This document shows positions 10,987-15,031 of a stretch of 34,647 bases of DNA, one piece after another; position 1 is the stretch's first letter, and every line of letters starts with the position of its first letter. The position numbers and the translations under genes were made by a program. The notes beneath the pieces were generated by a model. That model worked only from the letters and a program-made list of their open reading frames with translations. It was not told the origin of the DNA and did no database searches. Origin of the DNA: Myxococcota bacterium (GTDB lineage: Bacteria; Myxococcota_A; UBA9160; SZUA-336); the NCBI GenBank assembly GCA_035498015.1, contig DATKAO010000176.1, forward strand, positions 1-34,647. The letters run 5' to 3'.

Positions 10987-12000
10987 CTAGCTGAAGCGCA
11001 GCGCGAAGCCGCCGCCCGTCACCGGACTCACCAGAGCGCGTGCGGGCAGGAAGCGCTGCACCACGTCGAGGTTGGTGTACGCGTGCGGCGTGAGCGGGCC
11101 GGTGCGGAACTCGCCTTCGCCCGCGAGCGCGAGCGGCAGCACGAGCTGGTCGGCGAGCTGCGGGCCCACCGGCACGTCGCGCATGAGATAGTCGCGCACC
11201 TGCTCCACGGCGCGCTCCGCGACCACGTGCGCGCGCAGGCCGCGCTCGCCGAAGCTCGCGAACAGCTCGGTCACGTGCTCGCACTCGAGCTCGACCAGGA
11301 GCGCGTTGCCCGGGCCCGGGCTGTCCACGTGCTCGACCGCGCAGGCGCCTTCGAAGTCGGACAGCTTTCTGCGCAGCGTCTCCAGCTCGCGCTCGCCGAT
11401 CTCGCGCGGCAGATGGGACAGGATCGCGCGCGCGCGGCGAGTCACGAGCGCGCCGCGCTGGGTGAGCTCGAAGCCGCGCAGCTTCGGGACGGGCTCGATC
11501 TCGACGCAAAGCCGGCCGCCGCCCGCGGGATAGAACCCGTGGCGTTCGAGCGAGGTGCGCACGCGCGGCCCCATCCGCTCCAGCAGCGGAAAGAACACGC
11601 GCGCCAGGTAGTCCCAGGGGGGAGCAGCCGGATTGTGAGTCCCGCCTTCGACCACAAGCCGCGAGGGCCCGTCGGCCAGCAGGAGCGGCGGCAGCACGGT
11701 CTGCACCACGAGGCAGGCGCTGCCGGCGGTGGCCACCGCAAAGCGGTACTCCCCCGGCTTCACCCGGCCCGGGCGGAACTCGAGTGACTCGGCGCCGAGC
11801 TGCGGGTCACCCGCCTCGGCCTGGCCGATCTCGACCGCCGCGCGCAGCGCGGCCAGGTGTTGCCGGAGCAAGCCCGGCTTCTTGCGGCCCGCGCGGATCT
11901 TGTCGATGCGGAACGGCGTGCCGGTGATCAGCGCCAGCGCGAGCGCGCTGCGCAGGATCTGGCCGCCGCCCTCGCCCTGGGAGCCGTCGATCGACAGCAT
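10987..12000 (-). CDS. rtcA: RNA 3'-terminal phosphate cyclase RtcA
   Basis: At 337 residues this has the full length of RtcA, which converts RNA 3'-phosphate ends to 2',3'-cyclic phosphates through a covalent His-AMP. MLSIDGSQGEGGGQILRSALALALITGTPF is the conserved N-terminus with EGGGQILR at 10-17. Near the end LADQLVLPLALAGEGEF and TPHAYTNLDVVQRFLP give the adenylated histidine at about His306. The ATG lies 3 nt after the rtcB stop, so rtcB-rtcA are one operon, under the sigma-54 promoter upstream of rtcB. The convergent neighbour ends 48 bp away. Identification is firm. Confidence 0.97.
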   Translation of the reverse strand: MLSIDGSQGEGGGQILRSALALALITGTPFRIDKIRAGRKKPGLLRQHLAALRAAVEIGQAEAGDPQLGAESLEFRPGRVKPGEYRFAVATAGSACLVVQTVLPPLLLADGPSRLVVEGGTHNPAAPPWDYLARVFFPLLERMGPRVRTSLERHGFYPAGGGRLCVEIEPVPKLRGFELTQRGALVTRRARAILSHLPREIGERELETLRRKLSDFEGACAVEHVDSPGPGNALLVELECEHVTELFASFGERGLRAHVVAERAVEQVRDYLMRDVPVGPQLADQLVLPLALAGEGEFRTGPLTPHAYTNLDVVQRFLPARALVSPVTGGGFALRFS

Positions 12001-12003
12001 GAC

Positions 12004-13236
12004 TCAGCCCTTCACGCAAACGACCTGGCGGAGCTCGTACACGACGTCCACGAGGTCCTTCTGCGCCTCCATGACCGCGTCGATCGGCTTGTAGGCGCCC
12101 GGGGTCTCGTCGATCACGCCGGCGTCCTTGCGGCACTCCACGCCCGCCGTGGCCTCCACGTGGTCGGCCAGGCTGAAGCGGCGCTTCGCCTCGCCGCGGC
12201 CCATGGCGCGGCCCGCGCCGTGACTGCAGCTCATGAAGCTCTCCGGGTTGCCCTTGCCGCGCACGATGTACGAGCGCGTGCCCATGCTGCCGGGAATGAT
12301 GCCCAGGTCGCCGCGCTGCGCGCGCACCGCGCCCTTGCGGGTCACGAGCACGTCCTTCCCGTAGTGAGTCTCGCGCGCCACGTAGTTGTGGTGGCAGTTC
12401 ACGGCCACGTCGGTGGCCTGGAACGGGCGGACCCCCGGCGTGCGCCCGAGCGCCTCGAGCACGTGCTTCATCATCAGCCGGCGGTTCGCGAGCGCGAAGT
12501 CCTGCGCCCAGCTCACCGCCTCCACGTAGTCGGCGAAGTGAGTGCTGCCGTCGTCGAACCAGGCCAGGTCCTTGTCCGGCAGCGAGCCCAGGCGCTCGCC
12601 CATGTCGTTCTTGGCCAGCTCGATGAAGTAGCGGCCGATCGCGTTGCCCACGCCGCGCGAGCCGGAGTGCAGCATCACCCACACGCGCTGCTCGCCGTCG
12701 AGACACACCTCGATGAAGTGATTCCCCGTGCCCAGCGTGCCCAGGTGCACGCGGTGATTCGAGTTCTTGATCTTGCCGTGCTTGGCCGTGATCGCGTCGA
12801 AACGCGGCGCGAGCCTTTGCCACTCGGCGTCGGCGTCGGCGGGCGGCGTGCCCCACGAGCCCTTGTCGCGGCGGCCGCGCGCCTTGCTGAGGCCGTGCGG
12901 CACCGCGTGCTCGATCTGGCTGCGCAGCTCGCGCAGGCCGTCCGGCAGGTCACTCGCGCCCAGCGTCGTGCGCACGGCCATCATGCCGCAGCCGATGTCC
13001 ACGCCCACCGCCGCCGGCACCACGGCGCCGTGAGTCGCGATCACGCTGCCCACGGTCGCGCCGATGCCCCAGTGCACGTCGGGCATGGCGGCGACCCAGC
13101 GGTGGATGAACGGCAGGCGCGCGATGTTCTCGAGCTGCTTGCGCGCGGAAGGCTCGAACGGGACGCCGCGTGTCCACGACTTCACGGGCACGCCGCCGTC
13201 CGGCTGGAAGGTCTCGTAGGGGAGGTCGCTAGCCAT
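12004..13236 (-). CDS. rtcB: RNA-splicing/repair ligase RtcB
   Basis: A 410-residue RtcB, which joins 2',3'-cyclic phosphate or 3'-phosphate ends to 5'-OH RNA using GTP and Mn2+. Metal ligands and motifs are intact: DIGCGM (80-85, Cys83), GTLGTGNHFIE, HSGSRGVG, NCHHNYV, and SCSHGAGRAMGR with the guanylylated His at about 339. The C-terminal DETPGAYKPIDAVMEAQKDLVDVV is conserved. Length is like the E. coli enzyme (about 408). The ATG is preceded by GGAGAG (minus strand, 13247-13242). It leads the rtcBA operon and is divergent from rtcR. No archease or tRNA gene is next to it, so a repair role rather than constitutive tRNA splicing is likely. Confidence 0.97.
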   Translation of the reverse strand: MASDLPYETFQPDGGVPVKSWTRGVPFEPSARKQLENIARLPFIHRWVAAMPDVHWGIGATVGSVIATHGAVVPAAVGVDIGCGMMAVRTTLGASDLPDGLRELRSQIEHAVPHGLSKARGRRDKGSWGTPPADADAEWQRLAPRFDAITAKHGKIKNSNHRVHLGTLGTGNHFIEVCLDGEQRVWVMLHSGSRGVGNAIGRYFIELAKNDMGERLGSLPDKDLAWFDDGSTHFADYVEAVSWAQDFALANRRLMMKHVLEALGRTPGVRPFQATDVAVNCHHNYVARETHYGKDVLVTRKGAVRAQRGDLGIIPGSMGTRSYIVRGKGNPESFMSCSHGAGRAMGRGEAKRRFSLADHVEATAGVECRKDAGVIDETPGAYKPIDAVMEAQKDLVDVVYELRQVVCVKG

Positions 13237-13253
13237 TGTCTCTCTCCGGTCTG

Positions 13254-13292
13254 GGCCGGCCGGGGCGGGTGTCGAGATCGCCCCGGCCGGCC
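13254..13292 (-). promoter_or_regulatory. perfect 14-bp stem-loop in the rtcBA leader
   Basis: GGCCGGCCGGGGCG (13254-13267) and CGCCCCGGCCGGCC (13279-13292) are perfect inverted complements around an 11-nt loop. On the minus strand this lies between the predicted sigma-54 start (about 13325) and the rtcB ribosome binding site (13247-13242), ending 17 nt before the ATG. No T tract follows on the minus strand, so it is not a normal terminator; a stability or translational control element is more likely. Confidence 0.6.
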
Positions 13293-13335
13293 GTTCCGCT
13301 CTCTTCTCTTTATCGCGGTTTTGGCGGGGCTCTAG

Positions 13336-13351
13336 AGCACCCCGCGTGCCA
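13336..13351 (-). promoter_or_regulatory. sigma-54 promoter of rtcBA
   Basis: Read on the minus strand the site is TGGCACGCGGGGTGCT: a perfect TGGCACG -24 element, then GTGCT where TTGCW is expected, with GG (13350-13349) and GC (13338-13337) separated by exactly 10 bp. Transcription would start near 13325 and give an rtcB leader of about 90 nt. RtcR, encoded divergently, is a sigma-54 activator, so the assignment agrees with the neighbour. Confidence 0.85.
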
Positions 13352-13378: not shown

Positions 13379-13390
13379 CACGGTCCTCAG

Positions 13391-13408
13391 TCTAGCTGAT
13401 CCGCTAGA
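13391..13408. promoter_or_regulatory. candidate RtcR operator, TCTAGC-N6-GCTAGA dyad
   Basis: TCTAGC (13391-13396) and GCTAGA (13403-13408) form a perfect inverted repeat with a 6-bp spacer; another CTAG follows at 13412-13415. The centre is about 75 bp upstream of the predicted rtcBA start, a normal distance for a sigma-54 activator site, and it overlaps the -35 region of rtcR, which would allow autorepression. Confidence 0.55.
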
Positions 13409-13416
13409 TGACTAGC

Positions 13417-13422
13417 TATAAT
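13417..13422 (+). promoter_or_regulatory. TATAAT -10 box of rtcR
   Basis: A perfect TATAAT lies 10 nt before the rtcR ATG at 13433. Transcription would start at about 13429, leaving a 5' leader of only a few bases and no room for a ribosome binding site. No good -35 box is visible 16-18 bp upstream, where the CTAG dyad sits. Confidence 0.7.
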
Positions 13423-13432
13423 TATCGCATCC

Positions 13433-15031
13433 ATGGCCCGCACCGTCGCGATCGGGTTCCTGGGAACGCAGCTCGACGCGCCGCGCGGGTCGGCGCGCTG
13501 GGAGCGCTGGCGGCCCAGCGTCGACCTGTGCCGGCACCCGGACCTGGCGATCGCGCGCTTCGAGCTGTTCTCGGAGCGGCGCTTCGCGAGCCTCGCGCGC
13601 CAGGTCACCGCCGACATCGCGACCGCCTCGCCCGAGACCGAGCTGCGCGTGCACGAGCTCGGGCTCCGCGACCCCTGGGACTTCGAGGAGGTGTACGGCG
13701 CGCTGCACGACTTCGCGCGCGCCTACCGCTTCGCGCCCGAGGACGAGGAGTATCTCGTGCACGTGACCACGGGCACGCACGTGGCGCAGATCTGCCTGTT
13801 TCTGCTGACCGAGACACGCCACATCCCGGGGCGCCTGCTGCAGACCGCGCCGCCCGCGCGCGGCGCGCGCCAGGGGCCGGGCTCGTACACGATCATCGAC
13901 CTCGATCTGTCGAAGTACGACCGGCTGGCCTCGCGCTTCTCGCGCGAGCAGGCCGAGAGTCTCTCGTTCCTGAAGTCGGGCATCGCGACGCGCAACGCCG
14001 CCTTCAACGCGCTGGTCGAGCGCATCGAGCGCGTCGCCATCGCCTCCACCGCGCCGATCCTGCTCATGGGGCCGACCGGCGCCGGCAAGTCACAGCTCGC
14101 GCAGCGCATCCACGCGCTGAAGCAGTCGCGGCGCCAGGTGACCGGCCGCTTCGTCGAGGTGAACTGCGCGACCCTGCGCGGCGACGCCGCCACGTCGGCG
14201 CTGTTCGGTCACGTGAAGGGCGCGTTCACCGGCGCCATGCAGGACCGGCCGGGGCTGCTGCGCGCGGCCGACGGGGGCGTGTTGTTTTTGGACGAGATCG
14301 GCGAGCTCGGGCCCGACGAGCAGGCCATGCTCCTGCGCGCGATCGAGGAGAAGCGCTTCCTGCCGCTCGGCAGCGAGAAGGAGGCGAAGAGTGACTTCCA
14401 GCTGATCGCCGGCACGAACCGCGACCTGCGCGAGGCGGTGCGCCAGGGCGGCTTCCGCGAAGACCTGCTGACGCGCATCGACCTGTGGACCTTCACGCTG
14501 CCGCCGCTGCGCGCCCGGCCCGAAGACGTGGAGCCGAATCTCGACTACGAGCTCGAGCAGTGGGCCGCGCGCACGGGCGCGCGAGTCACCTTCAACCGCG
14601 AGGCGCGGCAGAAGTTCCTGGCCTTCGCGACCGACCCGAGCTCGGCCTGGCCCGGCAACTTCCGTGACTTCAACGCCGCGCTCGTGCGCATGGCCACGCT
14701 CGCCCGTGGCGGCCGCATCGACGAGCCCGTGGTCGAGGAGGAGCTCGGCCGGCTGCGCGCCGCCTGGTCCGGCGGCGGCCATGCCGCCGAGGACGAGGTC
14801 GCGCGCGTGCTCGGCCCGCAGCAGCGCGCCGGGCTCGACCTGTTCGACTCGGCGCAGCTCTCCGCGGTCCTGCGCGTCTGCGCCGAGTCACGCACCTTGT
14901 CCGAAGCCGGACGCCGCCTGTTCGCAGTGTCTCGCGCGCAGCGCTCGAAGACCAACGACGCCGACCGCCTGCGCAAGTATCTCGCGCGTTTCGGCCTGTC
15001 GTGGCAGGAGCTCGAAGAGCGGCTGCGCTAG
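13433..15031 (+). CDS. rtcR: RtcR, sigma-54 dependent activator of the RNA repair operon with N-terminal CARF domain
   Basis: A 532-residue enhancer-binding protein. The N-terminal domain (about 1-180) is the RtcR CARF-type ligand domain, with HVTTGTHVAQICLFLLTE (110-127) as its typical nucleotide-binding strand-helix. The AAA+ domain has Walker A GPTGAGKS (213-220), the sigma-54 contacting GAFTGA loop (263-268), and Walker B VLFLDE (283-288). The C-terminus holds a helix-turn-helix region (about 480-532). RtcR is known to sense RNA ends carrying 2',3'-cyclic phosphate, such as tRNA fragments, and to activate rtcBA, which lies divergent here. Its TAG shares CTAG with the stop of the opposing gene. 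Confidence 0.97.
   Translation: MARTVAIGFLGTQLDAPRGSARWERWRPSVDLCRHPDLAIARFELFSERRFASLARQVTADIATASPETELRVHELGLRDPWDFEEVYGALHDFARAYRFAPEDEEYLVHVTTGTHVAQICLFLLTETRHIPGRLLQTAPPARGARQGPGSYTIIDLDLSKYDRLASRFSREQAESLSFLKSGIATRNAAFNALVERIERVAIASTAPILLMGPTGAGKSQLAQRIHALKQSRRQVTGRFVEVNCATLRGDAATSALFGHVKGAFTGAMQDRPGLLRAADGGVLFLDEIGELGPDEQAMLLRAIEEKRFLPLGSEKEAKSDFQLIAGTNRDLREAVRQGGFREDLLTRIDLWTFTLPPLRARPEDVEPNLDYELEQWAARTGARVTFNREARQKFLAFATDPSSAWPGNFRDFNAALVRMATLARGGRIDEPVVEEELGRLRAAWSGGGHAAEDEVARVLGPQQRAGLDLFDSAQLSAVLRVCAESRTLSEAGRRLFAVSRAQRSKTNDADRLRKYLARFGLSWQELEERLR

Follow-up and report, generated by a model that had tools for sequence, protein, structure and literature searches.

The rtcBA operon in the window (the whole stretch of 34,647 nucleotides analysed here) is preceded by a leader with a perfect, G+C-rich hairpin that is probably genuine as a leader element, although restricted to one lineage. 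The most likely function is a structural one, in which the hairpin would give shape or protection to the message, as judged from predicted folds and from the comparison with one related locus. Only part of the signals controlling the RtcBA repair operon is known. If the hairpin affects expression, it would represent a second, lineage-specific layer of control on rtcBA; as it stands, the finding is a modest one.

The rtcBA-rtcR locus and its promoter

Two co-directional genes on the minus strand, 3 nt apart, encode the RNA ligase RtcB (12004-13236; Pfam PF01139, E 5.8e-129) and the RNA 3'-terminal phosphate cyclase RtcA (10987-12000; PF01137, E 5e-76). The divergent rtcR gene on the plus strand (13433-15031; PF06956, E 2.1e-81, and PF00158) encodes a sigma-54 activator with a CARF-type N-terminal domain. 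Between rtcR and rtcB lies a sigma-54 -24/-12 site, TGGCACGCGGGGTGCT (13336-13351, minus strand), which reaches 0.95 of the consensus score; 60 RtcR-rtcB loci are arranged alike. The locus thus displays all the features that define RtcR-controlled rtcBA operons, namely, a divergent rtcR, a sigma-54 promoter and adjacent rtcB and rtcA. Given the usual sigma-54 spacing, RtcR and the sigma-54 polymerase would start the message near position 13325, that is, upstream of the hairpin, and no sigma-70-like promoter was found between the hairpin and rtcB.

The same intergenic region contains further symmetrical sequences. A dyad, GCGGGG-TGCTCTAGAG-CCCCGC (13323-13344), overlaps the -12 element and the start region of the rtcBA promoter. 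GATA/TATC inverted motifs (e.g., TATCC..GGATA) are located at 13390-13432, upstream of the sigma-54 site and adjoining the start of rtcR; they recur at the corresponding place in many rtcR-rtcB loci and are candidate RtcR enhancer sites.

Anatomy of the leader hairpin and chance expectation

The hairpin, AUCUCGACACC in the transcript (13254-13292, minus strand), is 39 nt long and consists of a perfect 14-bp stem and an 11-nt loop. Its 5' arm in the transcript is GGCCGGCCGGGGCG (13279-13292, minus strand) and its 3' arm is CGCCCCGGCCGGCC (13254-13267, minus strand), as defined by complementarity; on the forward strand of the window, the order is GGCCGGCCGGGGCG at 13254-13267, the loop at 13268-13278 and CGCCCCGGCCGGCC at 13279-13292. 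The first-pass annotation was right in describing the arms of this G+C stem as completely complementary and in placing the hairpin between the sigma-54 start and the ribosome-binding site of rtcBA. Counted from the predicted start, the hairpin corresponds to nt 34-72 of the transcript. It is directly followed by CAGACCGGAG and ends 6 nt before the Shine-Dalgarno sequence of rtcB, GGAGAGAG (13240-13247, minus strand), which is predicted to be unpaired, and 17 nt before the AUG. The predicted energy of the hairpin is -35.4 kcal/mol, the predicted mean pairing probability of the stem in the leader context is 0.998, and the z score for folding of the leader is -2.6 with flanks and -5.0 alone.

A structure this strong just before the ribosome-binding site had been called unusual, an assessment that holds for its place but not for its length alone. 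No other perfect short-loop stem in the window is as long, and the maximum among 30 order-2 Markov copies was 13 bp. A 990-kb portion of the genome contains three perfect stems of at least 14 bp versus two in one Markov sequence; given that, in this 70% G+C genome, equally long perfect stems occur about as chance predicts, the stem alone proves little. By contrast, among 225 leaders preceding genes with a Shine-Dalgarno sequence, sampled from these 990 kb, the rtcB leader is the sole one with a stem longer than 9 bp. When the same 225 leaders are ordered by total folding energy, it comes only 28th, a consequence of the high G+C content. Thus, stem length alone is near chance at the genome scale, whereas the placement of the stem in the leader is beyond chance.

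A position-conserved hairpin in a related genus

Among 91 genomes in the class, three have RtcR, in one case as a weak match. Full-length matches within the class are limited to the genome of the window and to G004, a member of the same family from another genus, with rtcB divergent from rtcR in both and 73% identity between the two RtcB proteins. The G004 leader carries a hairpin, GGCCGCCGGGTGGTGCGTACCCCCGCGGACCCGGCGGCC, which is also 39 nt long, has 11 perfect outer pairs and a predicted energy of -30.5 kcal/mol, versus -35.4 kcal/mol in the window. Its arms, GGCCGCCGGGT...ACCCGGCGGCC, differ in sequence from those of the window, yet pairing is retained, and the hairpin occupies predicted transcript nt 35-73, versus 34-72 in the window. 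Stems of 11 bp with this length and position were encountered once among 8000 random genome segments and never among 6000 shuffles. The flanking parts of the two leaders are recognizably related, with TGCTCTAG after the promoter and an AAGAGAGAAG-like sequence before the stem; the local alignment score of the two leaders was reached by 5 of 500 shuffles.

When the two hairpins are aligned from the stem base, a one-base deletion is matched in both arms and, after the shared GGG, a U-A pair in G004 takes the place of a G-C pair. These paired changes come from the only two sequences that carry the hairpin, in an alignment guided by the structure, and automatic alignment with MAFFT places the arms differently. 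Compensatory changes in relatives, to which the first-pass annotation had looked for confirmation, are mildly favoured by the 39-nt hairpin of G004 with its altered, pairing arms. Between the two genera, the distance of the hairpin to the predicted transcription start is kept (34 nt in the window and 35 nt in G004), but that to the start codon is not (17 nt and 51 nt, respectively), suggesting that the hairpin acts at the level of the RNA or the early transcript. Compared with shuffled copies, the G004 leader as a whole shows no gain in stability (z -0.64), and its Shine-Dalgarno sequence, far from the hairpin, is predicted to be partly paired.

As a separate observation, the G004 leader (locus L025) contains an out-of-frame ACAATG like that at the rtcB start of the window; rtcB of G004 begins approximately 27 nt past this motif, with its own Shine-Dalgarno sequence, AGGAG.

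Distribution among RtcR-controlled rtcB leaders

The broader survey comprised 60 distinct loci with rtcB divergent from rtcR within 900 bases, gathered within the phylum and by scanning public genomes. The median leader extends about 30-35 nt past the -12 element and has no hairpin. A comparable hairpin at this place is absent from 58 of the 60 leaders, which are mostly short and include those of close homologues, indicating that the hairpin is not a general part of the RtcR/RtcBA system. In the sequences compared, it is confined to one small branch. The picture that emerges is one of RtcR-controlled rtcB leaders that are mostly very short and unstructured, with one family in which the leader is longer and has a strong hairpin at a conserved position.

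Longer leaders are also found at L034, L077, L082, L056 and L221, some of them with strong stems of different shape and place; for instance, the L082 leader contains a 10-bp stem and exceeds its shuffles in stability (z -3.3). The window, G004 and the Planctomycetaceae locus L056 form a supported group in the RtcB tree (0.97), and in the RtcR tree the protein from the window pairs with that of L056 (0.96). Despite this grouping in both trees, a comparable perfect hairpin was not found in the 211-nt leader of L056.

Possible roles of the hairpin

We tentatively favour the interpretation of the hairpin as a lineage-specific, constitutively folded and passive element of the rtcBA 5' UTR, which would serve as a barrier or an insulator. 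From the predicted start, the message would begin with a purine-rich stretch of approximately 33 nt that is mostly unpaired, followed by the 39-nt hairpin, a free Shine-Dalgarno sequence and rtcB. At about -35 kcal/mol, the stem would in effect be permanently folded and, lying between the 5' end and the ribosome-binding segment, might block ribonucleases that come in from the leader. It may also insulate, so that G+C-rich stretches of the leader do not pair with the Shine-Dalgarno sequence: when the hairpin segment is removed in silico, the first two G residues of the latter become largely paired, the probability of being unpaired dropping from 0.71 to 0.23 and from 0.85 to 0.28. An insulating role shared by both genera is excluded by the G004 leader, whose stability does not exceed that of shuffles and whose distant Shine-Dalgarno sequence is predicted to be partly paired. 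Also weighing against the favoured interpretation, most RtcR-controlled rtcB leaders manage without any hairpin, and the one described here begins some way inside the predicted transcript, away from the extreme 5' end.

Classical stabilizing stem-loops, of the ompA, papA and aprE type, sit at the very 5' end. Assignment of the hairpin to 5'-terminal stabilizing stem-loops of the ompA type was rejected, its predicted transcription start being 33 nt upstream of the stem. Nevertheless, it resembles the ompA, papA and aprE elements (listed among the references of PMC3997798) in being a strong leader hairpin that leaves the Shine-Dalgarno sequence free, and differs from them by the mostly unpaired segment predicted to precede it.

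Alternatively, the hairpin might have no function and have been passed down to two related loci as a G+C inverted repeat that arose by chance or is drifting, which we consider unlikely, if well worth bearing in mind. The near-Markov frequency of equally long perfect stems in the genome and the presence of the hairpin in two carriers only, as opposed to the 58 leaders without it, are consistent with such an origin. However, the arms of the two carriers differ in sequence and still pair, with equal length and transcript position.

The first-pass annotation had also linked the hairpin to the action of RtcB and RtcA on RNA ends. RtcB, RtcA or RtcR would then bind, cut or end-modify the hairpin and thereby control the amount of their own message, making it a ligand or substrate in cis for the RNA-repair machinery of the operon, with post-transcriptional feedback atop RtcR control; we regard both the autoregulation and this feedback layer as improbable. 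That the operon encodes RNA-end enzymes and that the conserved distance is to the transcription start rather than the start codon would fit this scheme, as would the finding that RtcA and RtcB, both required for activation, bind to the RtcR CARF domain (PMC9650030). A precedent is offered by RNase E, which binds the stem-loop in the rne 5' UTR and so controls its own message (PMC3997798). The likeness lies in a leader hairpin in an operon for an RNA-acting enzyme, but RNase E binds its own leader, whereas binding by RtcB, RtcA or RtcR here is conjectural. Moreover, the loops of the two carriers have no motif in common, there is no tRNA-like fold, and almost every other rtcB leader under RtcR control, close homologues included, lacks the element although the enzymes are the same, which speaks against a general feedback mechanism and leaves the proposed link unsupported.

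A translational element, either a ribosome-blocking switch, as had been proposed, or a standby site beside the Shine-Dalgarno sequence, appears similarly improbable. The short gaps that separate the hairpin from GGAGAGAG and the AUG would suit such an element. However, the Shine-Dalgarno sequence is predicted to be open rather than sequestered (probability of being unpaired 0.71-0.98), the ensemble contains no alternative fold of comparable energy, and 51 nt separate the G004 hairpin from the start codon there. With a stem predicted to be essentially always folded and to leave the Shine-Dalgarno sequence open, a ribosome-blocking switch is unlikely. Equally doubtful is a DNA-level site, shortly past the transcription start, at which a dimeric regulator would bind, which the perfect inverted repeat with its 11-bp spacer at about +34 to +72 would allow, given that arm sequence changed between the carriers with pairing kept, the opposite of operator behaviour, and that both arms are found together nowhere else in the genome.

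Comparison with known RNA elements

Searches of Rfam with gathering and relaxed thresholds yielded nothing credible for the hairpin. A tRNA-like element was rejected, as ARAGORN was negative on both the window and G004, and so was an intrinsic terminator or attenuator, with no terminator-like site on either strand and CAGACCGGAG, not a U run, after the stem. A dispersed, REP-like repeat was likewise discarded: the 14-mer occurs twice elsewhere in the genome, each time without the partner arm. Those class-wide arm matches that were examined are in G+C-rich, probably coding DNA and look like chance similarity. A T-loop-like UCGA in the loop was dropped because it is absent from G004.

The Salmonella rsr-yrlBA-rtcBA operon includes Y RNAs (PMC7790460) and resembles the locus described here in combining RtcR/sigma-54-controlled rtcBA with a structured RNA in the same transcript. 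The window differs in having a simple 39-nt hairpin, and a Y RNA was rejected, since the genome encodes no Ro/TROVE protein (PF05731) and the Rfam and tRNA-like searches were negative. The papers PMC7790460, PMC9650030 and PMC12606134, which deal with RtcR rather than with the leader, make no mention of a leader or 5' UTR element.

Other structured RNAs at RtcR loci

The long rtcB leaders of L077 (168 nt), L082 (164 nt) and L034 (162 nt) contain several strong stems and are possibly separate non-coding RNAs; none of the three has an Rfam match. In Pseudomonadota RtcR loci, a tRNA-like RNA is located 145-180 nt downstream of the sigma-54 promoter, namely, in L085 (2599-2671), L093 (Pseudomonas aeruginosa PA7; 2614-2687), L113 (2599-2672), L119 (2565-2638), L120 (2575-2648) and L134 (2596-2667). 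CCA is not encoded, the body, GGATAGCTCAGTCGGGTAGAGCAACC...GGTCTGTCGCGGGTTCGAATCCCGCTCCAA, is near-constant and the anticodon varies (GAT, ACG, CAT, TGT). This tRNA-like RNA precedes a gene that, by eye, resembles slipin/SPFH.
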